A DNA stretch of 48,234 nucleotides from Nioella sp. MMSF_3534 (GTDB taxonomy: Bacteria; Pseudomonadota; Alphaproteobacteria; Rhodobacterales; Rhodobacteraceae): the NCBI RefSeq assembly GCF_030732985.1, contig NZ_JASHJX010000035.1, positions 1 to 48,234 of the forward strand. Direction: 5' to 3'. Both the position numbers and the translations under genes were made by a program. The first letter of the stretch is position 1; each line of letters starts with the position of its first letter. The notes under the pieces are model-generated. The model ran no database searches. It saw only the letters and a program-made list of their open reading frames with translations, and was not told the DNA's origin. Shown here piece after piece: positions 5,792 through 36,674 of this stretch.

Positions 5792-6339
5792 TGCAGCGCC
5801 TCCGGTGCGGGGTGGCGGAAGACCAGTATGACCTCGCCTTCCTCAGCTTCGGGTGCCTTGGCGTTTGCATCCACTTCGCATCCCATACGTTCCGCAAGGG
5901 CGATGGACCGTGTGTTGCGGCTGTCGATATAGGACACCGCCGTCGGCCAGCCGAGATCTTGATAGGCAAACCGACGCGCCTCTTTCGCGGCTTCAAGGGC
6001 AAAGCCCTTGCCCTCGGCATCAGCATTCCAGACCGTCCAGCCGAGTTCCTGTTCCGGCCAGTCGATCGGATGCCAGGGGCCGGTCATCCCGATAGGTGTC
6101 TCGGGGTCTGATCTGAGCGCGAAGACAAAGCTGCCATAGCCGCGCAGCATCCACATACCCGCCACATGCGCGAAGGCGCGCCATGCCTTTGCGGGATCGG
6201 CGATCATCGGGCCACCGATGAATTCGGCCCGGCTGCTTGCCGTGAAGTCGCACCAATGCTGCACATCCCCCATGCGCGGGGCGCGCAGGACGAGACGCTC
6301 GGTTTCGAGCGTGGGGATATGCGGCAGGGCTGTGGTCAC
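5788..6339 (-). CDS. GNAT-family N-acetyltransferase (RimJ/RimL-like), copy 1
   Basis: A 183-residue acetyltransferase. IPTLETERLVLRAPRMGDV is the first strand and turn, ELGWTVWNADAEGKGFALEAAKEA holds the acetyl-CoA loop, and YIDSRNTRSIALAERMGCEV is the typical Asn-rich C-terminal block. It begins inside the last codons of ffh (ATGA overlap) and ends inside the start of the next GNAT by the same four bases, so the run ffh-GNAT-GNAT-chorismate mutase is a chain of coupled cistrons. The acceptor is not predictable. The link to SRP and ribosomal genes hints at a ribosomal-protein or nascent-chain target, but that is only context. Confidence 0.85.
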   Translation of the reverse strand: MTTALPHIPTLETERLVLRAPRMGDVQHWCDFTASSRAEFIGGPMIADPAKAWRAFAHVAGMWMLRGYGSFVFALRSDPETPIGMTGPWHPIDWPEQELGWTVWNADAEGKGFALEAAKEARRFAYQDLGWPTAVSYIDSRNTRSIALAERMGCEVDANAKAPEAEEGEVILVFRHPAPEALQ

Positions 6340-7853
6340 TTCTTCTTTCCGAAGCCTGACAGGCCGGGGGGCAGCGGGGCACCGCCGAGGCCGGGCATAT
6401 TGCCCGAACCGGGCGCGCCAAGCTGCTTTGCGGCCTGTTCCAGTGCCGCCTGATCCATGCCGCCTGCACCGGGGCCGCCGGGCATTCCGGGCATGCCGCC
6501 GCCCTTGCCAAAGAGCGCGCCGAGACCGCCGCGCATCATTCCCTTTTTGCCCATCTTGCCAAGCTTCTTCATCGCGTCTGACATCTGCCGGTGCATCTTC
6601 AGCAGCTTGTTCAGTTCGGCCACATCCTGCCCGGCCCCTGCCGCGATCCGCTTTTTGCGGCTGGCCTGCAGCAACCCGGGATTGGCACGCTCGCGCTTGG
6701 TCATGGAATTGATCAGAGCGATTTGCCGCTTGATAACCTTGTCGTCGAACCCGGCATCCTCGACCTGCTTGGCCATCTTCTTCATGCCCGGCATCATCGA
6801 CATCATGCCTTCCATGCCGCCCATCTTGAGCATCTGTTCCAGCTGGCCCTTCAGGTCGTTCATGTTGAACATACCCTTCTGGAAGCGCTTCATCATGCGC
6901 TCGGCCTGTTCGGCCTCCAGCGTTTCCTGGGCTTTCTCGACCAGGGCCACGATGTCGCCCATGCCGAGGATGCGGCCGGCGATCCGCTCGGGCTCAAACG
7001 TTTCCAGCGCATCCATCTTTTCGCCGAGACCGACAAAGCGGATGGGCTTGCCGGTGATCGCCCGCATCGAGAGCGCCGCACCACCGCGCCCGTCACCGTC
7101 CATCCGGGTCAGGCAGACGCCGGTCACGCCGATCTTGTCGTCAAATTCCTTCGCGACATTCACCGCGTCCTGACCGGTCAGGCCATCGACCACCAGCAGC
7201 GTTTCGCGGGGGGTCGCGATGTCGCGCACTTCCTGTGCCTGCTGGATCAGTTCTGCGTCGATATGCAGACGACCGGCGGTGTCCAGCATGTAGACGTCAT
7301 AGCCACCTAAGCTGGCCTGCGTCTTGGCGCGCTTGGCGATTTGTTGCGCGGTCTCGCCCTTCACGATCGGCAGGGTGTCCACACCGATCTGCACACCCAG
7401 AATGGCCAGCTGTTCCATAGCCGCCGGGCGGTTGGTATCGAGCGAGGCCATCAGCACCTTCTTGCCTTCACGTTCCTTCAAACGCTTGGCAAGCTTGGCG
7501 GTGGTGGTGGTTTTACCGGACCCCTGAAGGCCCACCATCAGGATCGGGGCGGGCGGATTGTCGATCTTCAGCGCGCCGGGGTCGCCCTCGCCCCTCAGGG
7601 TCTCGATCAGCTCGTCATGGACGATCTTGATGACCTGCTGGCCGGGGGTGACCGACTTGGTGACCGCCGCGCCTGTAGCTTTCTTTTCGACCGATTTGAT
7701 GAAGTTGCGCGCCACCGGCAGCGAAACGTCCGCTTCCAGCAACGCCACCCGCACCTCGCGCATCGCGGTGCGAACGTCATCCTCGGACAGGGCACCCTGC
7801 TTGGTCAGGCGGTCGAAGACACCAGACAGGCGTTCGGACAGATTTTCGAACAT
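6336..7853 (-). CDS. ffh: Signal recognition particle protein Ffh
   Basis: Ffh is the SRP54 GTPase that binds 4.5S RNA and signal sequences and docks with FtsY at the membrane. The helical N domain spans roughly residues 1-90. In the G domain, G1 is GLQGSGKTTTTAKLA (109-122), DTAGR is at 191-195, and TRMDGD at 249-254. The methionine-rich M domain follows (MKRFQKGMFNMNDL, MGGMEGMMSMMPGMKKM) with the RNA-binding SMTKRER block. The tail is Gly/Met/Pro-rich and ends in FGKKK. The total of 505 residues is slightly long because of this tail. It has its own promoter and a structured leader upstream and is the first gene of the minus-strand chain ending near rpsP or rimM. Confidence 0.97.
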   Translation of the reverse strand: MFENLSERLSGVFDRLTKQGALSEDDVRTAMREVRVALLEADVSLPVARNFIKSVEKKATGAAVTKSVTPGQQVIKIVHDELIETLRGEGDPGALKIDNPPAPILMVGLQGSGKTTTTAKLAKRLKEREGKKVLMASLDTNRPAAMEQLAILGVQIGVDTLPIVKGETAQQIAKRAKTQASLGGYDVYMLDTAGRLHIDAELIQQAQEVRDIATPRETLLVVDGLTGQDAVNVAKEFDDKIGVTGVCLTRMDGDGRGGAALSMRAITGKPIRFVGLGEKMDALETFEPERIAGRILGMGDIVALVEKAQETLEAEQAERMMKRFQKGMFNMNDLKGQLEQMLKMGGMEGMMSMMPGMKKMAKQVEDAGFDDKVIKRQIALINSMTKRERANPGLLQASRKKRIAAGAGQDVAELNKLLKMHRQMSDAMKKLGKMGKKGMMRGGLGALFGKGGGMPGMPGGPGAGGMDQAALEQAAKQLGAPGSGNMPGLGGAPLPPGLSGFGKKK

Positions 7854-14904: not shown

Positions 14905-15459
14905 ATGAAACGCCTTGCAGTTCTTTTCGCACTGATCGGCTCGCCCGCTTTCGCGGCGTCGGGTCCGTTCTTCTCGCTGTTCAACACCGACTTCGTGGTG
15001 CTGATCTCGTTCCTCGTGTTCATCGGGGTCCTGGTTTACTTCAAGGTGCCCGGCATCCTGATGGGTCTTCTGGATCAGCGCGCCGAAGGCATCCGCAACG
15101 AGCTGGACGAAGCCCGCGCTCTGCGTGAAGAGGCTCAGACGATCCTCGCCTCTTACGAGCGCAAGCAGCGTGAAGTGGCCGAACAGTCCGAGCGCATCGT
15201 CGCCCAGGCCCGCGAGGAAGCCCAGATTGCAGCCGAGCAGGCAAAGGCCGACCTGAAAGCCTCCATCGCGCGCCGTCTGACCGCTGCCGAGGATCAGATC
15301 GCCTCTGCCGAGGCCGGTGCCGTCCGTGAAGTGCGCGACCGGGCTATCAGCATCGCCGTGGCCGCCGCCGCGGAAGTGATTGCCGCCAAGACCAGCGCCG
15401 CAGATCAGAACAAGCTGATCGACGGTGCTATCGAAGAGGTTTCGGCCCGCCTGCACTAA
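14905..15459 (+). CDS. atpF: F0F1 ATP synthase subunit b
   Basis: Peripheral-stalk subunit linking F0 to F1 through subunit delta. The 184-residue chain begins with a signal-peptide-like segment ([17 protein letters not shown]), followed by the membrane helix ([17 protein letters not shown]), the [16 protein letters not shown] turn and a long charged coiled coil. Signal-like N-termini on b subunits are known in this group. It is the last gene of the operon and is followed by a terminator. The F1 genes are not in the window, as is usual for alphaproteobacteria. Confidence 0.95.
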
Positions 15460-18792: not shown

Positions 18793-19535
18793 CAGATGCA
18801 ACGCCCCCCGTCCACTTCCATCGCCACGCCGGTCACCATGCTGGCCTCATCCGAGGCGAAATAGAGCGTCGCGTTGGCGATGTCCTCGGGCGTCGAGAAC
18901 CGGCCGATTGGAATGGTCGAGATGAACTTGGCCCGTATCTCCGGCGTGTCCTCCCCCATGAAGCTTTTCAGAAGCGGCGTTTCGCCTGCGACGGGATTGA
19001 CCGCGTTCACCCGGATGCCGAAGGGGGCCAGTTCCACCGCCATGGCCTTGGTCGCGGTGATCATCCAGCCTTTTGACGCGTTGTACCAGTTGAGGTTCGG
19101 ACGCGGGCTGACCCCGGCGGTGGAGGCGATGTTCACGATGGCCCCGGCGCCCGCATCCTTCATATGCGGCACGATTTCCCGCGCCGTCAGGTAGACCGAT
19201 TTGGCATTCACGGCCAGCACCCGGTCGAATTCCTCTTCCGTCACGGTTTCCAGCGGTTTCGGCAAATGGGTGATGCCGGCATTGTTGACCAGAATGTCGA
19301 TGCGGCCCCAGGCATCCAGCGCGGCGCGCACCATTTCCCTGACGCTCTCGCCGTTGGAGACATCGGTGACTTGCGCGATGCCGCCGATCTCTGCCGCGAC
19401 GGTTTCTGCCGCGTCGCCATTCAGGTCCACGACCATAACCTTCGCGCCCTCCGCCGCGAAACGCCGCGCGATCCCCGCGCCAAAGCCTGATCCCGCGCCG
19501 GTCACGATGGCGGTCTTGCCTTCCAGTCTCATCAC
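18792..19535 (-). CDS. Short-chain dehydrogenase/reductase (FabG-like, glucose 1-dehydrogenase-like)
   Basis: A 247-residue classical SDR. The cofactor loop TGAGSGFGAGIA is at residues 12-23, with Asp at the end of the second strand (VVDL), which favours NAD+. NNAG is at 84-87, and the catalytic triad is Ser138, Tyr151 and Lys155. The C-terminal SMVTGVAMEVDGGRCI is typical. It is coupled to the P1 peptidase gene, which suggests that the two act on related substrates; the reaction is not predictable. Confidence 0.88.
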   Translation of the reverse strand: MMRLEGKTAIVTGAGSGFGAGIARRFAAEGAKVMVVDLNGDAAETVAAEIGGIAQVTDVSNGESVREMVRAALDAWGRIDILVNNAGITHLPKPLETVTEEEFDRVLAVNAKSVYLTAREIVPHMKDAGAGAIVNIASTAGVSPRPNLNWYNASKGWMITATKAMAVELAPFGIRVNAVNPVAGETPLLKSFMGEDTPEIRAKFISTIPIGRFSTPEDIANATLYFASDEASMVTGVAMEVDGGRCI

Positions 19536-19591
19536 TCTCTCTCCGCTGTTTGGTTCGATGTTTCCACGAAACGGACGGGGCGGAAAGGGGC

Positions 19592-20362
19592 TTAGCCCCG
19601 GTTGGCCAGAACCAGTGCGGTCAACTGCGTCGCAGATCCGACACCAAGCTTGCGCCAGGCCCGCTTGCGCAAGGTGCGAACCGAGTTCTCGGACACCCCG
19701 AGCGCCACGGCGGTTCCCGCCACCGAAACCCCGCGTGCGGCGTGGTCGCAGACCTCCGCCTCGCGCGAGCTTAGGGCCGTGAACGGGTCCACAGCCCTGT
19801 CCCGCAGCCCCGAGGCCGTGCTGTCGGACGTCCCGACCAGCCGATGCCTGAGCCCGATCAATTCATGGGCCAGCGGCAGGACCGTGCGCAGCCGGTCCAT
19901 GTCCGTGGCGGTCAACCAGCCCGATCGCTCGCCCCGCAGGTAGAACGACACGAAGCCGCCCCGCCCCATGTGCGAGGCGACCGAAACCCGCTCAATCACC
20001 TTGTCACGGATATAGATCGGTGCGCGGGGGTCGTCGGCGGGCGGGTGCCATCTGTCGATGACCAGCCCGCCCGGCGGGGCGCGGCGGATACGCTCGACGA
20101 AGTCGCGGCGCAGCGTGTCGTGCGAGGTGATGCGCCGCGCGTTCACATTGAACCAATAGTCGCTCATCTGCCCCGACCAGACCGACAGGACCGGCTGCGG
20201 GTTGCTCAGATCTGGCACAAGGAAGGCCCCGAAATTTGCGATCTCGGCCTGGGTGCGGATGTGGGCCAGCAGTGCCGCCCCGAACCCGTCTGTTGGCACA
20301 GTGGCCACAACTGCGGCGACGGGATCGCGGGGCAGGGGGGATGTGATCGGGTTGTCACTCAT
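19592..20362 (-). CDS. LuxR-type regulator divergent from the dehalogenase
   Basis: A 256-residue protein. The C-terminal LuxR helix-turn-helix is DPFTALSSREAEVCDHAARGVSVAGTAVALGVSENSVRTLRKRAWRKLGVGSATQLTALVL (about 195-255). The N-terminal 180 residues form a domain I cannot match with confidence; it lacks the Trp/Tyr/Asp pattern of acyl-homoserine-lactone receptors and has no phospho-acceptor receiver. The start at MSDNPITSPL is chosen because the upstream extension looks non-coding. The start codon lies 72 bases from the start of the reductive dehalogenase on the other strand, so it is the obvious candidate regulator, perhaps sensing the halogenated substrate. Confidence 0.8.
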   Translation of the reverse strand: MSDNPITSPLPRDPVAAVVATVPTDGFGAALLAHIRTQAEIANFGAFLVPDLSNPQPVLSVWSGQMSDYWFNVNARRITSHDTLRRDFVERIRRAPPGGLVIDRWHPPADDPRAPIYIRDKVIERVSVASHMGRGGFVSFYLRGERSGWLTATDMDRLRTVLPLAHELIGLRHRLVGTSDSTASGLRDRAVDPFTALSSREAEVCDHAARGVSVAGTAVALGVSENSVRTLRKRAWRKLGVGSATQLTALVLANRG

Positions 20363-20371
20363 ACGGGTGAC

Positions 20372-20401
20372 AGAATAGGCGGTCCGGCATCGGCTAAGCA
20401 A
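20372..20401 (-). promoter_or_regulatory. Putative promoter of the LuxR-type gene
   Basis: On the minus strand TTGCTT (20396-20401) and TATTCT (20372-20377) are 18 bases apart, just before the LuxR start. It fills most of the 72-base divergent region. No equally good element is seen for the dehalogenase, which suggests that its promoter needs activation. Confidence 0.4.
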
Positions 20402-20434
20402 GAGGTCTCAACTCACGGGACACCGGGGCCGCCA

Positions 20435-23400
20435 ATGACCCGCATCTTCTCTGATCGCAACCGACCCGTCCATCTGGGGCCTTTCCCGCTGGAGCGGTTG
20501 TCGCGCACGGATCGTGCGGATTTATCGGCGGTCCCGGCCATGCGCACGGTGAGTTTCAGGCGCCCCGACGCCCCCGAAAGCATCGTGAACGCAATGCGCG
20601 AATACCAGGCGATGCTGGACGCGATCCGCGACGGGTTGGTGAACCCCGTGACCTCTGACATCCCAGCCGATCCGACGGAGCGGGCCAATCACCTCAAGGC
20701 CTTTGGCTATTTCAACGACGCCGCGATGGTGGGCATCTGCCGCCTGCCGGAAACTGCCCTGCTGGCTGACCCGATCCGCAACCCGGATATCGACCGGCTG
20801 GCCCATGACCTGAAAACCCGGCAGACCAAGACGCTGGCCTCCGGCATCGACATGATCATGGCCGATCTGAAAGACAGTATGGAGGCCCCGCCCACAACGA
20901 TCGAGGGGCACACGCACGCCATCGTCTATCTCTACGAAAACCCGCGCGCGCCGGAGGCGGGCGAGGAGGGCTGCGACTGGCTGGACGACGCGCTGGAGGC
21001 GCGGGCCTGTCTGCGCGCCAACGAAACCGCCAGCGTCATCGCCAATTACCTGCGGCTTTTGGGGTTCGCGGCCAAGTCCCATTCAGGCGCGGCAAGCGAT
21101 GTTGACCGCAACAAGCTGACCGTGGCGGCGGGGCTGGCGCGGGTGGAGGGCGGCCAGCTGCTGGCCCCGTTTGTCGGAGATCGCTTTGGCGTCTCTGTCG
21201 TGACCTGCCAGATGGACCTGACCTGCGACCGGCCCCTCGCGGACACCCCCGGCAGCGGCGGCGCAGCGTGGCGGCTTGGCAAGGGTGTGCAGCGCTCCGC
21301 GCTCAACCGCAACCCGTTCGACAAGCGCCGCTTCGTCGATGGCGGGCACCCGTTCGAGAAACTGAAGCGCGTCGACACGCCCACGACCTATATCGACGAG
21401 GCCCGCGTGGCCCGCGTTCCCAAACGCACCGATATGTTCGCCCGCGCCCAGTTCGGCGATATGGGCAAGGCCTTGCAGGACGGCGCCAAGGGCGGTCACT
21501 ACGTGCGAAAATCCGCCCCCTCGACCGCGCAACGTCGCGCGCTTGGGGCCTTCGTATTGTTGCAGGATGGCGTGCCGAACCCGGATGGTCCCCGCCCGAC
21601 CGACGCCGCGCGCAATGCCGCGAATATCAAGGCGGCCAGCTACTTCCTCGGCGTCGATGCCGTTGGCCTGTCACGCTGTCCGGATTGGGCGTGGTATTCC
21701 CATGACGCGTTAGGCGACCCCATCGACCCGCCCCACGATCAGGCGATCAGCATGATCATCGACCAGGGATACGAGACCATGGAGGGCGCGTCCGGCGATG
21801 ACTGGATATCGGTCGCCCAATCCATGCGCGCCTATCTGCGGTTTTCGCTGCTCGGCGGAGTCATCGCGCAGCAGATCCGCAACCTCGGCTACAAGGCCAA
21901 GGCCCATTCGGTGATGGATGGCGAGGTATTGCAACCGCCCCTTCTGTTGCTGTCTGGACTGGGGGAGGTCAGCCGCATCGGCGAGGTCATCCTCAACCCC
22001 TATCTCGGTCCGCGCCTGAAATCCGGTGTGGTGACGACCGACATGCCGCTGGCCCATGACAAGCCGATTGATTTCGGCCTGCAACGGTTCTGCGAGAGCT
22101 GTAACAAATGCGCCCGCGAATGCCCCTCCGGCGCGATCACCGCCGGGCCGAAGCTGATGTTCAACGGCTACGAGATCTGGAAATCCGACAGCCAGAAATG
22201 CGCGACCTACCGGATCACCACCAAGGGCGGCGCGATGTGCGGGCGCTGCATGAAGACTTGTCCCTGGAACCTGGAGGGGCTGTTTGCGGAAAAACCCTTC
22301 CGGTGGGCAGCGATGAATATGCCCGGGACCGCGCCGCTTCTGGCCCGGCTGGATGATGCCGTGGGCAATGGCGGGCTGAACGACGTCAAGAAATGGTGGT
22401 GGGATATCGAGCTGGAGGAGGACGGGGCCTATCGTCCGTCACAGCATCCTCTCAACCGGCGCGATCTGCAAAAGGGGCTCGACCTGAAATACGAGGACCA
22501 GACGCTGGCAGTCTATCCCGCGCCGCTCGCGCCGCACCCGTGGCCCTACCCGTTCCCGATGGACCGGGAAAAGGGGATCGAGGCCTATCAGGCGATGGTG
22601 ACCGCACAGGAATACAAGCTGCGGCTGCAACAGGGCGAGACGGAGCATCTGCACGAATACACCGTTCCCGGCGACGCGCCCGTGATCCGGGTGGAGGTGA
22701 CGACAGCCGAAAAGATGACGCAGGACGTAACCAGATACGAATTCCGCGCGCTCGACGGTGGCGATCTGCCAGAATGGACGGCGGGCGCGCATCTCGACAT
22801 CGTCGTCGCGCCGGAGTTTCTGCGGCAATACTCCATGTCTGGCGACCCTGCGGACCGGTCGGTCTACCAGATCGGGGTGCTGCGCGAGGATGAGGGGCGG
22901 GGCGGATCGAAGCTGATGCACCGGATCTTCACGCCGGGGCGCAAGATCTTCATCTCGAAACCCATCAACCATTTCGAACTGGATATGGGCGCGACACGGA
23001 CCCTGCTGATGGGCGGCGGGATCGGCATTACCCCGATGATCGCCTTTGCAAATGAGCTGCACCGGCAGGGCCGGGATTTCGTGCTGCACTATTCCTGTTC
23101 GTCGCGGGCCTCTGCCGGGTATCTGAATGATCTGGCGGCGATGCCCTGGGCCGACCGGGTTCACCTGCACTTTTCCGACGAGGGCAGCCGCGCCGATCTG
23201 CATGCGTTGATGGCGGGGTATCGGCCCGGCTGGCATGTCTACACCTGCGGGCCGGATCGCTATATGAGTGCGGTGCTCGAGGCGGCTGAAAAGGCAGGCT
23301 TCCCCGAGGAGGCGCGGCACCTGGAGTATTTCTCGGTGCCCGAGCAGCCGGACTATGAAAACCATCCCTTTGTCCTGCGCCTGAAAGACGGGCGGGAATT

Positions 23401-23626
23401 ACCGGTGGCGGAGGACCAGACGGCGGCCGAGGTCCTGCAGGCGGCGGGCATCCCGGTGGATCTGAAATGCGATGACGGCATCTGCGGGGTCTGCAAATGC
23501 GGGGTCCTATCGGGGGAGGTGGAGCATCGGGATTTCGTGCTGTCCAGGGCGCAGCGGGCGCGGGCGATGATCACCTGTCAGAGCCGGGCGGCTGTGCCGG
23601 GCGGGGTGATCGAGCTGGATCTCTGA
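20435..23626 (+). CDS. Self-sufficient cobalamin-dependent reductive dehalogenase fused to an NAD(P)H ferredoxin reductase
   Basis: A 1063-residue fusion. Residues 370-540 form the corrinoid-binding nitroreductase-like domain (Tyr421 in DWAWYSHD, Lys487 in NLGYKAKAH; these and Arg551 are candidate equivalents of the NpRdhA catalytic Tyr/Lys and substrate Arg, from memory). Two [4Fe-4S] motifs follow: CESCNKCARECP (Cys553, 556, 559, 563), and Cys589 with CGRCMKTCP (Cys602, 605, 609). Residues 50-260 look like a degenerate copy of the corrinoid domain. The C-terminal third is a phthalate-dioxygenase-reductase-like module: flavin motif RQYSMSGDP (798-805), nucleotide loop GGGIGITPM (860-868), CGPDRYM, then a plant-type [2Fe-2S] with Cys1012, 1017, 1020 and 1048. 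There is no Tat signal and no rdhB. This is the BhbA/NpRdhA catabolic type; halogenated phenolic substrates are inferred. The upstream frame is open, but homology starts at this ATG. Confidence 0.93.
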   Translation: MTRIFSDRNRPVHLGPFPLERLSRTDRADLSAVPAMRTVSFRRPDAPESIVNAMREYQAMLDAIRDGLVNPVTSDIPADPTERANHLKAFGYFNDAAMVGICRLPETALLADPIRNPDIDRLAHDLKTRQTKTLASGIDMIMADLKDSMEAPPTTIEGHTHAIVYLYENPRAPEAGEEGCDWLDDALEARACLRANETASVIANYLRLLGFAAKSHSGAASDVDRNKLTVAAGLARVEGGQLLAPFVGDRFGVSVVTCQMDLTCDRPLADTPGSGGAAWRLGKGVQRSALNRNPFDKRRFVDGGHPFEKLKRVDTPTTYIDEARVARVPKRTDMFARAQFGDMGKALQDGAKGGHYVRKSAPSTAQRRALGAFVLLQDGVPNPDGPRPTDAARNAANIKAASYFLGVDAVGLSRCPDWAWYSHDALGDPIDPPHDQAISMIIDQGYETMEGASGDDWISVAQSMRAYLRFSLLGGVIAQQIRNLGYKAKAHSVMDGEVLQPPLLLLSGLGEVSRIGEVILNPYLGPRLKSGVVTTDMPLAHDKPIDFGLQRFCESCNKCARECPSGAITAGPKLMFNGYEIWKSDSQKCATYRITTKGGAMCGRCMKTCPWNLEGLFAEKPFRWAAMNMPGTAPLLARLDDAVGNGGLNDVKKWWWDIELEEDGAYRPSQHPLNRRDLQKGLDLKYEDQTLAVYPAPLAPHPWPYPFPMDREKGIEAYQAMVTAQEYKLRLQQGETEHLHEYTVPGDAPVIRVEVTTAEKMTQDVTRYEFRALDGGDLPEWTAGAHLDIVVAPEFLRQYSMSGDPADRSVYQIGVLREDEGRGGSKLMHRIFTPGRKIFISKPINHFELDMGATRTLLMGGGIGITPMIAFANELHRQGRDFVLHYSCSSRASAGYLNDLAAMPWADRVHLHFSDEGSRADLHALMAGYRPGWHVYTCGPDRYMSAVLEAAEKAGFPEEARHLEYFSVPEQPDYENHPFVLRLKDGRELPVAEDQTAAEVLQAAGIPVDLKCDDGICGVCKCGVLSGEVEHRDFVLSRAQRARAMITCQSRAAVPGGVIELDL

Positions 23627-23644
23627 CGCGGATCGGGGTTTCGC

Positions 23645-23745
23645 CGTGCCTTCGGCACGTCGATCCGCGCGGCCCGTGCCGGGCCGCGACCAACGCTCTT
23701 GCAAGAGCGTTCAGGCGGCTCTGCCCCCGTCGCCTTGCAGGCGAC
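23645..23745. repeat. Array of four perfect hairpins after the dehalogenase gene
   Basis: Four perfect stem-loops follow one another: CGTGCC-TTC-GGCACG (23645-23659), CGCGGCCCG-TGC-CGGGCCGCG (23668-23688), the 20-base palindrome AACGCTCTTGCAAGAGCGTT (23692-23711), and GTCGCCT-TGC-AGGCGAC (23729-23745). A fifth, CCGCCTGC/GCAGGCGG (23783-23790 with 23805-23812), follows the conserved repeat. The stretch 23627-23873 holds no gene. The last hairpin plus the following TATTTTT may act as a terminator. Confidence 0.7.
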
Positions 23746-23751
23746 TCCCCC

Positions 23752-23775
23752 GAGGTATTTTTGCCAAGATGAAAG
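23752..23775 (+). repeat. Rhodobacteraceae-type intergenic repeat, copy A
   Basis: A 24-base element beginning GAGGTATTT and ending CCAAGATGAAAG, preceded directly by a hairpin. A near-identical copy in the opposite orientation is at 28512-28536. I recall this element at gene ends in many Rhodobacteraceae; its function is not known to me. Confidence 0.65.
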
Positions 23776-23873
23776 CAGGAGCCCGCCTGCTTGCGGTTCA
23801 GGGCGCAGGCGGCAGTTGCGCATGAGGACCAGAGCGGGCAGGCTGGTGGAACCCGTTGATTGGAGCCGCGTTC

Positions 23874-25118
23874 ATGCCTGTCCAGATTTCCCGCCGCGCC
23901 GTTTCCCTCGGACTGCCTGCCCTGCTGTTGACCGGATGCGTGACCGGCGGCGCGGGGCTGGTCAGCCGCGATGAATGGCGCAGCGTGCCGAATGCTGACT
24001 TTGACCGATGGTTGGCCGGGTTCCGTGTACGGGCGGTGGAGAACGGGATTTCCGAAGCCACCGTCACCCGCGCCTTTCGCGGCGTGGGCTATGTGCCGCT
24101 GGTGATCGAGCGCGACCGCAACCAGGCGGAGTTCAACCGCACGATGGAGGATTACCTCGCCATCGCCGCCTCGGAGGAGCGGATCAGCATGGGGCGCGCC
24201 AAGCTGCGTCAGCATGACCGTGTGTTGCAGGCGATCGAAGACCGTTTCGGGGTCGAGAAACACGTCATGTGTGCGGTCTGGGGGATGGAGAGCTTTTACG
24301 GCACGCGAGAGGGTGACGCGCCTGTCATCGCGGCTTTGGCGACGCTGACCTTCGACGGGCGGCGCGGGCGGTTCTTTGGCAGCCAGCTGATGTCGGCGCT
24401 CAGGGCGCTTGACCGGGGTGACAGCACCGTGGCGCAGATGCGCGGCTCCTGGGCGGGGGCCATGGGACACACCCAGATCATGCCGGAAGTGCTGGAGGAT
24501 TACGGCGTCGATTTCGACGGCGACGGTCGGCGCGGGTGCTGGGACGATGATCCGACCGATGCGCTGGCGACCACCGCCAATTATCTGGCCCGGCATGGCT
24601 GGCGGCGCGGCCAGCCTTGGGCCGTCGAGGTGCAACTGCCAGAGGGGTTCGACGAGAGCCTCGCCGGGCGGACTCGCACCCGCTCCGTCGCCTCCTGGAT
24701 GAACATGGGGGTGCGCGACATGGATGGGAACCGGGTGCCCGACCATGGCGAGGCGGCGATCCTTTTGCAGATGGGCATCGAAGGCCCTGCGCTGATGATC
24801 TTCCGCAACTTCACCGCGATCCGGCGCTATAACCCGGCCAATAACTACGTCATCGGCATCGGTCACCTGTCCGACCGGCTGGTTGGCGGCCCGCCCATTC
24901 GCGGCAACTACCCGCCCGACGAAAACGGCCTGACCCGTGCGGGCCGGATCGAACTGCAGGAGCGGCTGACCGCCCAAGGCTTTGACACAGGCGGCAGCGA
25001 CGGGGTGATCGGCCCCGCCAGCCGCGCCGCGATCCGCGCCTATGAGCGCGCGCAAGGATTGCCGGAAACCGGCGTTGCCACCGACGAATTGCTGGCCCGC
25101 CTGCGCCAAACCGGCTGA
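23874..25118 (+). CDS. Lytic murein transglycosylase, MltB family, lipoprotein
   Basis: It cleaves peptidoglycan glycan strands to 1,6-anhydromuropeptides in the periplasm. The 414-residue protein begins with a signal and lipobox (ALLLTGC, Cys22). The SLT_2 domain has the catalytic Glu139 in VWGMESFYG, followed by FFGSQLMSALRALDRGD, SWAGAMGHTQIMPEVLEDYGVDFDGDG and ALATTANYLARHGWRRG. A C-terminal peptidoglycan-binding domain (LQERLTAQGFDTGGSDGVIGPASRAAIRAYERAQGL) ends the chain. The ATG at 23874 has GGAG eight bases upstream and gives a clean signal peptide. Confidence 0.92.
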   Translation: MPVQISRRAVSLGLPALLLTGCVTGGAGLVSRDEWRSVPNADFDRWLAGFRVRAVENGISEATVTRAFRGVGYVPLVIERDRNQAEFNRTMEDYLAIAASEERISMGRAKLRQHDRVLQAIEDRFGVEKHVMCAVWGMESFYGTREGDAPVIAALATLTFDGRRGRFFGSQLMSALRALDRGDSTVAQMRGSWAGAMGHTQIMPEVLEDYGVDFDGDGRRGCWDDDPTDALATTANYLARHGWRRGQPWAVEVQLPEGFDESLAGRTRTRSVASWMNMGVRDMDGNRVPDHGEAAILLQMGIEGPALMIFRNFTAIRRYNPANNYVIGIGHLSDRLVGGPPIRGNYPPDENGLTRAGRIELQERLTAQGFDTGGSDGVIGPASRAAIRAYERAQGLPETGVATDELLARLRQTG

Positions 25119-28841: not shown

Positions 28842-29036
28842 ATGGCCACCAACCCGCTTCAGTTCCTGCAACAGACCCGTTCGGAGGTCTCCAAGGTCGT
28901 TTGGCCGACGCGGCGCGAGGTGCTAGTGACCACTCTGATGGTCTTTGCTCTGGCCATTGTCGGTGCGATTTTCTTTTCCTTCGTGGACATCCTGATCCGG
29001 TGGGGTCTGGAACTGATCCTGACGATGGCTGGCTGA
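28842..29036 (+). CDS. secE: Preprotein translocase subunit SecE
   Basis: SecE clamps SecY in the Sec translocon. The 64-residue, single-span form is typical of alphaproteobacteria: an amphipathic N-terminal segment FLQQTRSEVSKVVWPTRREV with the conserved VVWPTRRE, then the membrane helix TTLMVFALAIVGAIFFSFVD. The open frame reaches further upstream, but the family starts at MATNPLQF. It heads the secE-nusG-rpl-rpo cluster. Confidence 0.96.
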   Translation: MATNPLQFLQQTRSEVSKVVWPTRREVLVTTLMVFALAIVGAIFFSFVDILIRWGLELILTMAG

Positions 29037-32354: not shown

Positions 32355-32537
32355 AGCCTCGTCTTGGCGAGGGCCCGCATGTGACGGACCTTCCCCAAGA
32401 CGCGGTTCACAGGATCGGGAGCCCGCCGGTGGGACGGCAGGCATGAATTGATCCGAACCCGTCTGGTTTCAGTGCGACGCATGGCCGGTGCCCCGACGGC
32501 CCGTGCGAGCGCGAAGAAACGAAAGGTGTCCGAGAGC

Positions 32538-36674
<4,137 letters not shown>

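Follow-up and report, generated by a model that had tools for sequence, protein, structure and literature searches.

Respiratory reductive dehalogenases (RdhA) are Tat-exported and tied to RdhB. The gene considered here, rdhA, lies on a 48,234-nucleotide contig of Nioella sp. MMSF_3534 (NZ_JASHJX010000035.1; this whole stretch is referred to as the window), and its 1063-aa product is assigned by sequence to another known class, the self-sufficient catabolic RdhA, to which JtRdhA and BhbA belong. JtRdhA (WP_104007082), an enzyme of the marine species Jhaorihella thermophila, was purified and characterised in earlier work (J Biol Chem 2023; PMC10463259). In the excerpts of that paper used here, it is described as one RdhA + PDOR chain without a Tat signal, which debrominates and deiodinates with NADPH at 1:1 coupling and is active in air or nitrogen. 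Its substrates are brominated and iodinated phenols; the chloro analogues tried were not converted. The enzyme is fast on 3,5-dibromo-4-hydroxybenzoate and enabled E. coli W to grow on 3-bromo-4-hydroxyphenylacetate, on which it is as active as on its best substrate (PMC10463259). BhbA (WP_015585978) is encoded on the conjugative plasmid pBHB of Comamonas sp. 7D-2, where bhbA is adjoined by ligA and a class III dioxygenase beta gene. NpRdhA of Nitratireductor pacificus (PDB 4RAS, 6ZXU) has no fused reductase according to the same excerpts of PMC10463259, and the part of PMC7565698 drawn on here states that it acts on chloro-hydroxybenzoates too.

The window gene very probably encodes a cytoplasmic, self-sufficient catabolic RdhA that would use NADPH to remove bromine or iodine ortho to the hydroxyl of phenols, with an apparently dedicated LuxR-type regulator. 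The use of the dehalogenation is best read as carbon supply from 4-hydroxybenzoate-like phenols.

Architecture and identity of the RdhA protein

The frame of rdhA is open and uninterrupted (Table 1). The longest mechanical open reading frame (ORF) extends upstream to 19844, and the alignment of relatives begins at 20435. A one-genome-per-species scan gave 513 stretches with relatives of the enzyme, of which the best 80 (72–95% identity) were kept. Together with the window and five plasmid loci, they form an 86-sequence comparison set, and all 86 proteins are uninterrupted, with lengths of 1063–1074 aa. The fusion is therefore not a frameshift artefact, and a frameshifted gene pair is rejected.

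The reductive dehalogenase model TIGR02486 scores 198.2 bits on the whole protein and 199.8 bits on residues 1–720 searched separately, against a cut-off of 160.35. The QueG model TIGR00276 reaches 26–27 bits (25.9 on the whole protein), far short of its cut-off of 200, and contig C36 of the same genome encodes a true QueG (440.5 bits); identity with QueG is thus rejected. In a profile search of the PDB, NpRdhA is the best solved-structure match for residues 3–741 (552 bits), and the PceA structures 4UQU and 8Q4H match the catalytic part at 116 and 70 bits. Residues 744–1057 are best matched by the P450-reductase fusions 6kbh/6laa and phthalate dioxygenase reductase 2pia, and Pfam places a Fer2 domain at residues 986–1052. 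A reading made earlier from the sequence alone (the sequence-only reading) had proposed a single-chain fusion of dehalogenase and reductase without a Tat signal, and had named a best match to QueG and a frameshift between two genes as outcomes that would overturn it; the fusion was borne out, and neither outcome occurred.

A respiratory RdhA is rejected as well. The protein shares the corrinoid and two-[4Fe-4S] catalytic part with respiratory PceA, but differs from it in the fused reductase and in the missing Tat motif (the regular expression RR.F[LIVMFA] finds no match in the protein, and the NpRdhA alignment runs from residue 3 on). Its gene is flanked by the LuxR-type gene and a lytic transglycosylase gene, so that neither adjacent gene is rdhB, which was not searched for as such.

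Motifs in the protein are CESCNKCARECP (residue 553), CGRCMKTCP (602), RQYS (797), GGGIGITP (860) and CDDGICGVC (1012). The cysteines of the two [4Fe-4S] clusters (553, 556, 559 and 563; 589, 602, 605 and 609) and of the [2Fe-2S] cluster (1012, 1017, 1020 and 1048) are invariant in 86/86 sequences. The same holds for Y467, K529 and R593, which correspond to Y426, K488 and R552 of NpRdhA, and for S463, M464 and F335 (NpRdhA S422, M423 and F291). R593 is located past the corrinoid domain, in the cluster domain. Roles for these active-site residues are given for NpRdhA and JtRdhA in the consulted parts of PMC7565698 and PMC10463259. Residues 63–269 match residues 375–546 of the same protein (hhalign probability 99.1%, E 3.8e-19). 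The excerpts of PMC10463259 report a vestigial role of the duplicated corrinoid domain for relatives, describe both this duplication and an insert relative to NpRdhA for JtRdhA, and model the insert of RdhA-PDOR fusions over the active site. By that description, JtRdhA also has the same catalytic residues and a marine host.

BhbA is a full-length homolog with 51.0% identity over 1059 aligned positions and the same fusion and catalytic residues, which upholds the kinship proposed in the sequence-only reading. NpRdhA, named there too, proved a relative of the N-terminal dehalogenase part and not of the whole fusion: identity is 44.2% over 678 positions of that part, with catalytic residues and cluster ligands kept, and the alignment shows NpRdhA without the 42-residue insert. 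The pocket of the window protein differs from that of BhbA at M334, A351, Y356, V460 and V493 (F, S, S, S and A in BhbA), five of the six pocket positions that also set it apart from NpRdhA, and the window residue at these positions occurs in 81–84 of the 86 sequences.

By analogy with characterised kin, from which the cofactors, electron path, substrate class and oxygen tolerance are taken, NADPH would reduce the C-terminal flavin by hydride transfer, and single electrons would travel via the [2Fe-2S] cluster and then both [4Fe-4S] clusters until they reach a base-off corrinoid. Its cobalt, once reduced, would take bromine (or iodine) ortho to the phenolic hydroxyl, with Y467 as the presumed proton donor and K529, R593 and S463 probably holding the hydroxyl. 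The expected products are halide and a dehalogenated phenol, e.g., 4-hydroxybenzoate from 3-bromo- or 3,5-dibromo-4-hydroxybenzoate.

Distribution of the enzyme and links to aromatic catabolism

The enzyme is common, not rare, in its family and is a member of a described subfamily. Among 295 genomes of Rhodobacteraceae, 177 have a match at E ≤ 1e-20, in many cases confined to the reductase, and 112 have a relative that includes the dehalogenase part. The latter count includes split genes in G099 and G269 and cut-short ones in G102 and G287, and leaves out a reductase-less match in G033 and fragments in G160, G096 and G212. The closest relatives among the best 80 of the 513 stretches belong to Nioella sediminis (95%), N. 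ostreopsis (92%) and N. nitratireducens (90%). The titles of these 80 are nearly all Rhodobacterales, Hyphomicrobiales or unassigned Alphaproteobacteria metagenome-assembled genomes (MAGs), and one is filed under Flavobacteriales. In this last contig (L080, an uncultured Flavobacteriales MAG), rdhA is near-identical to the Rhodobacteraceae MAG copies L059 and L076, and the binning is probably wrong. Of 1118 matching plasmid records, eight cover at least 80% of the query, BhbA among them. In a quick-search tree with SH-aLRT support only and no respiratory RdhA included, the window protein clusters with those of Nioella, and BhbA, Nitratireductor OM-1, Aminobacter and NpRdhA form a separate group; the very long branches of NpRdhA and of the short RdhA make the placement of these two unsure.

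Some copies are irregular. The homologs in G269 (C1 2006484–2009686) and G099 (C4 333239–336423) are in two pieces with a break near residues 323–396, and are either real split genes or sequencing errors; G193 has a second, partial rdhA copy with two stops. The window's genome itself encodes a second, short RdhA-like protein of 404 aa (L001:979–2190 (+), contig C105 near 83,024–83,806), which scores 172.6 bits with TIGR02486, above the cut-off. It has no fused reductase and is distinct from the window protein. Its motif CAICMRVCP resembles, in a comparison by printed motif, that of Ros_A3X954 in the excerpts of PMC13101508, where short RdhA of this type from Roseobacter are described as non-respiratory, without a Tat signal and from a marine host.

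The sequence-only reading had left the substrate open, with halogenated phenols as a guess. The question is now less open, bromo- and iodophenols being backed by analogy with JtRdhA. The same reading had noted that no aromatic catabolism genes were present, which holds locally but not genome-wide: pobA (683.7 bits), hmgA, hpaD and cobN are found on other contigs of the genome. Across the family, pobA is present in 89/112 genomes with RdhA vs 111/183 others (Fisher p 8e-4, with kinship and genome size ignored). Genomes are often in contigs, so the linkage counts that follow are lower bounds. In three of the 89 genomes having both genes, pobA lies ~90, 247 and 365 bp from rdhA, where ~0.09 would be expected within 2 kb, and it lies within 15 kb in five (~0.65 expected under uniform placement); second fragments in G139 and G181 were left out of these distances. 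Two Hyphomicrobiales MAG loci (L038 and L050) have pobA, above the TIGR02360 cut-off, 9 bp past the rdhA stop on the same strand; they are close kin in the tree, and the arrangement may be a single event. The Nitratireductor OM-1 homolog has pobA and a class III dioxygenase gene nearby. This context agrees with a phenol product entering aromatic catabolism, which would proceed through PobA and protocatechuate or by parallel routes. A pobA match is absent from 23/112 RdhA genomes, and 4-hydroxybenzoate therefore cannot be the sole product route.

A less likely alternative keeps the enzyme class and changes its purpose: the main role would be detoxification or salvage of halogenated tyrosine-derived compounds of marine algae and sponges (bromotyrosine, bromohydroxyphenylacetate, bromohydroxyphenylpyruvate), with the product passing to homogentisate or homoprotocatechuate and not to 4-hydroxybenzoate. 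The activity of JtRdhA on 3-bromo-4-hydroxyphenylacetate, the presence of hmgA and hpaD in the window's genome and the genomes that have no pobA match all suit this alternative. In G294 (contig C6, 325735–330846), moreover, the rdhA homolog is divergent from hmgA at a distance of 640 bp, a hint of tyrosine-type halogenated substrates in that lineage. The linkage of hmgA and hpaD was analysed as a comparison for pobA in 80 of the 112 RdhA genomes, excluding from the distances partial hmgA matches (G245; second pieces in G020 and G151) and sub-cut-off hpaD matches. Within 5 kb of rdhA, hmgA was found in 1/72 genomes with both genes and hpaD in 0/40 (within 15 kb in one, at 10.7 kb), vs 3/89 for pobA plus the two operon-like MAG loci; these numbers are small, and they favour 4-hydroxybenzoate-like products.

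The divergent LuxR-type gene and the inverted repeat

The gene divergent to rdhA encodes a LuxR-type protein of 256 aa from the start common to relatives, and its longest ORF reaches 20401. In a 264-aa form of the protein, GerE (PF00196) scores 34.2 bits at residues 204–257 (cut-off 23.5), and no Pfam match at E ≤ 1 precedes residue 204, where a quorum-sensing receptor would carry its autoinducer-binding domain. Against the PDB, the helix-turn-helix alone is matched well, with E 0.36 or worse elsewhere; NCBIfam gives weak, sub-cut-off matches to the SdiA, EpsA and PA1136 models. The gene looks private to rdhA, more strongly than the sequence-only reading had claimed. Orthologs (E ≤ 1e-30; at most nine candidates per genome among the matches listed) occur in 9/295 family genomes and are divergent to rdhA in 9/9. 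In the named loci retrieved, the gene is present six times in addition to the window, and five of these six copies adjoin rdhA; the exception is L003 (N. ostreopsis). LuxR- and MarR-type regulators are reported near a respiratory rdhA cluster of marine Desulfoluna in the part of PMC7031245 drawn on here, so LuxR genes beside rdh genes have a precedent.

Alignment of the gap between the two genes in six loci revealed a conserved 20-bp inverted repeat. In the window, it spans the shared start codon of the LuxR gene and lies 62 bp ahead of the rdhA start. The pattern TGTCANNCATNNGGGTGACA, drawn from the six loci (G000 among them; G186 and G044 are probably the same as, or nearly the same as, two others), has six exact matches in the 295 genomes, all in LuxR–rdhA gaps, and the remaining three LuxR–rdhA pairs carry the repeat with one mismatch, one of them as a perfect 10 + 10 palindrome. 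Independent confirmations are provided by G208, G193 and G200 (exact) and by G005, G053 and G009 (one mismatch). The reversed control pattern has zero matches in the 295 genomes, and in the window's genome the repeat occurs once, at this gap. Its distance to the rdhA match that follows is 56–71 bp in eight genomes; in the ninth, where the match begins at residue 4, it is 125 bp. In G053, the repeat is ~77 bp from the LuxR match, off its start. The remaining 103 RdhA genomes lack the repeat on the rdhA contig up to 100 kb away from the gene. Allowing one mismatch at most gives 53 rows in 46 genomes, mostly elsewhere and presumably by chance. A looser form, TGTCA-N10-TGACA, was seen 3.2 kb from rdhA in L060, where this LuxR gene is absent from the fetched stretch.

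The repeat is a candidate operator: the LuxR-type protein would bind it between both genes, probably switching the enzyme on when a halogenated aromatic is present and repressing its own gene. We tentatively propose, at somewhat less than even confidence, that a minority of marine Rhodobacterales carry a two-gene cassette in which a LuxR solo senses a halogenated phenol, and not a quorum signal, at a private 20-bp operator.

In the N. ostreopsis locus, the segment that begins at the repeat and extends past tdh is inverted, and the SecE and NusG frames precede the repeat on the other strand. The LuxR gene begins 5.4 kb past the rdhA end with a new start, and the repeat is intact 62 bp ahead of rdhA. 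The inversion, at ~7,900 and 16,600 of L003, lies between the LuxR start and the secE side, with a remnant of the old LuxR start beside the repeat. The retention of the repeat at rdhA without LuxR favours a role in rdhA control over a by-product of the LuxR start.

The opposite explanation, that the LuxR gene and repeat are functionally unrelated to rdhA, the repeat being kept through the LuxR start and the pairing through shared ancestry, is unlikely. In 8/9 genomes, the LuxR start codon as placed by alignment lies within the repeat, and if the protein truly starts at 20401 the repeat is coding (residues VTRM recur in relatives), which could partly explain its conservation. Most pairs also come from related genera, and the N. 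ostreopsis inversion may have happened too recently for decay of the repeat. Under the shared start, however, half of the repeat is outside the LuxR frame yet conserved, while residues further upstream are not, one pair has a perfect palindrome, and in N. ostreopsis the repeat is intact beside rdhA in the absence of its LuxR gene there. The LuxR–rdhA pairs occupy two distinct regions of the enzyme tree, and all nine family orthologs of the LuxR gene are beside rdhA with none elsewhere, among the matches listed.

Genomic setting and assessment

The gene order in the window is LuxR, repeat, rdhA, lytic transglycosylase, kbl and tdh, followed by frames near 28890 and 29239 which we take to be SecE and NusG. 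The rdhA gene sits amid housekeeping genes with a LuxR gene, unlike plasmid-borne bhbA beside ligA and a class III dioxygenase gene. No mobile elements were noticed among the window parts scanned. Neighbouring ORFs were picked by a simple codon-position GC rule, so that errors and omissions among them are possible. No conserved catabolic operon emerged when the surroundings of the window gene were checked for one; the gene order is shared with Nioella loci only. The commonest neighbour families are GerE (4/43 upstream) and FAD_binding_3 (3/46 downstream), with 25/67 and 25/75 families listed. The upstream set of 43 consists of 41 out of 53 listed proteins and of two LuxR proteins, from the window and from L074; the proteins omitted are likely spurious antisense ORFs and near-duplicates; the 46 downstream proteins are 45 of 54 plus the window's own. 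Syntenic Ruegeria copies were taken out before this tally.

Table 1. Features of the rdhA locus and its surroundings (window coordinates).
Feature	Position	Strand	Evidence or remark
Fused reductive dehalogenase-reductase (RdhA-PDOR)	20435–23626	+	1063 aa plus stop; profile, PDB and alignment evidence
Second, presumably vestigial corrinoid-binding domain copy (residues 63–269)	20621–21241	+	Profile-profile match
42-residue insertion (residues 105–146) relative to NpRdhA	20747–20872	+	Alignment
Catalytic corrinoid domain (~residues 375–552) with Y467, S463, M464, K529	21557–22090	+	Alignment with NpRdhA and loci
Two [4Fe-4S] motifs (residues 553–612)	22091–22270	+	Fer4_16, Fer4_7 above cut-off
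Phthalate-dioxygenase-reductase-like module: flavin and NAD(P)H domains, then [2Fe-2S] ferredoxin	22682–23623	+	Pfam, PDB, motifs
LuxR-type (GerE) regulator, divergent to rdhA, 256 aa	19592–20362	-	GerE; start common to relatives
20-bp inverted repeat TGTCACTCATACGGGTGACA, candidate LuxR operator	20353–20372		Gap alignment, pattern searches
SRP54	6336–7853	-	Housekeeping neighbour
ATP synthase b	14905–15459	+	Housekeeping neighbour
RNA polymerase beta	32448–36674	+	Housekeeping neighbour

Several observations weigh against the proposed bromophenol-dehalogenating enzyme with its own regulator. Besides the RdhA genomes that have no pobA match, the hmgA neighbour in G294, the hpaD gene 10.7 kb from another homolog, the displaced LuxR gene of N. 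ostreopsis and the possible coding nature of the repeat, they concern both the protein and its surroundings. The Pfam model PF13486 (Dehalogenase) gives no score on the RdhA protein at E ≤ 1. The pocket differs from that of NpRdhA at 6/12 positions checked (F290M, K307A, F310Y, P311V, A419V and N452V), so that the substrate preference may differ. No aromatic catabolism genes are seen beside rdhA in the window, and close pobA–rdhA linkage occurs in few genomes. LuxR orthologs are limited to 9/112 RdhA genomes; the same enzyme has a LysR gene upstream in a cluster of 26 loci, mostly Ruegeria (the family was seen on L014), and a MarR gene upstream in L089 and L090, a pattern that may reflect a sensor exchanged several times while the enzyme stayed the same. 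A promoter of sigma-70-like type was looked for in 19500–24000, and none was detected.

It is very improbable that dehalogenation is a side activity and that the fused protein has a non-halogenated electrophile as its substrate, much as an epoxide is reduced by the related QueG: a gene widespread in the family and placed amid housekeeping genes is unexpected of a pollutant enzyme, but the halophenol hydroxyl-binding residues known from NpRdhA show no variation, the protein scores low as QueG with a true QueG present in the genome, JtRdhA is fast on 3,5-dibromo-4-hydroxybenzoate (excerpts of PMC10463259), and natural marine organobromines could explain the wide distribution.

The enzyme is of an already known kind; what is added here is its frequency, the hint about the substrate from pobA and a regulator with a candidate operator. 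A compound that makes the LuxR-type protein act at 20353–20372 would reveal what induces the enzyme in nature. The occurrence of pobA next to rdhA in some relatives suggests brominated 4-hydroxybenzoates as one class of compounds used naturally, and the spread over 112/295 genomes of the family suggests that this dehalogenase is a common part of marine bromine cycling.

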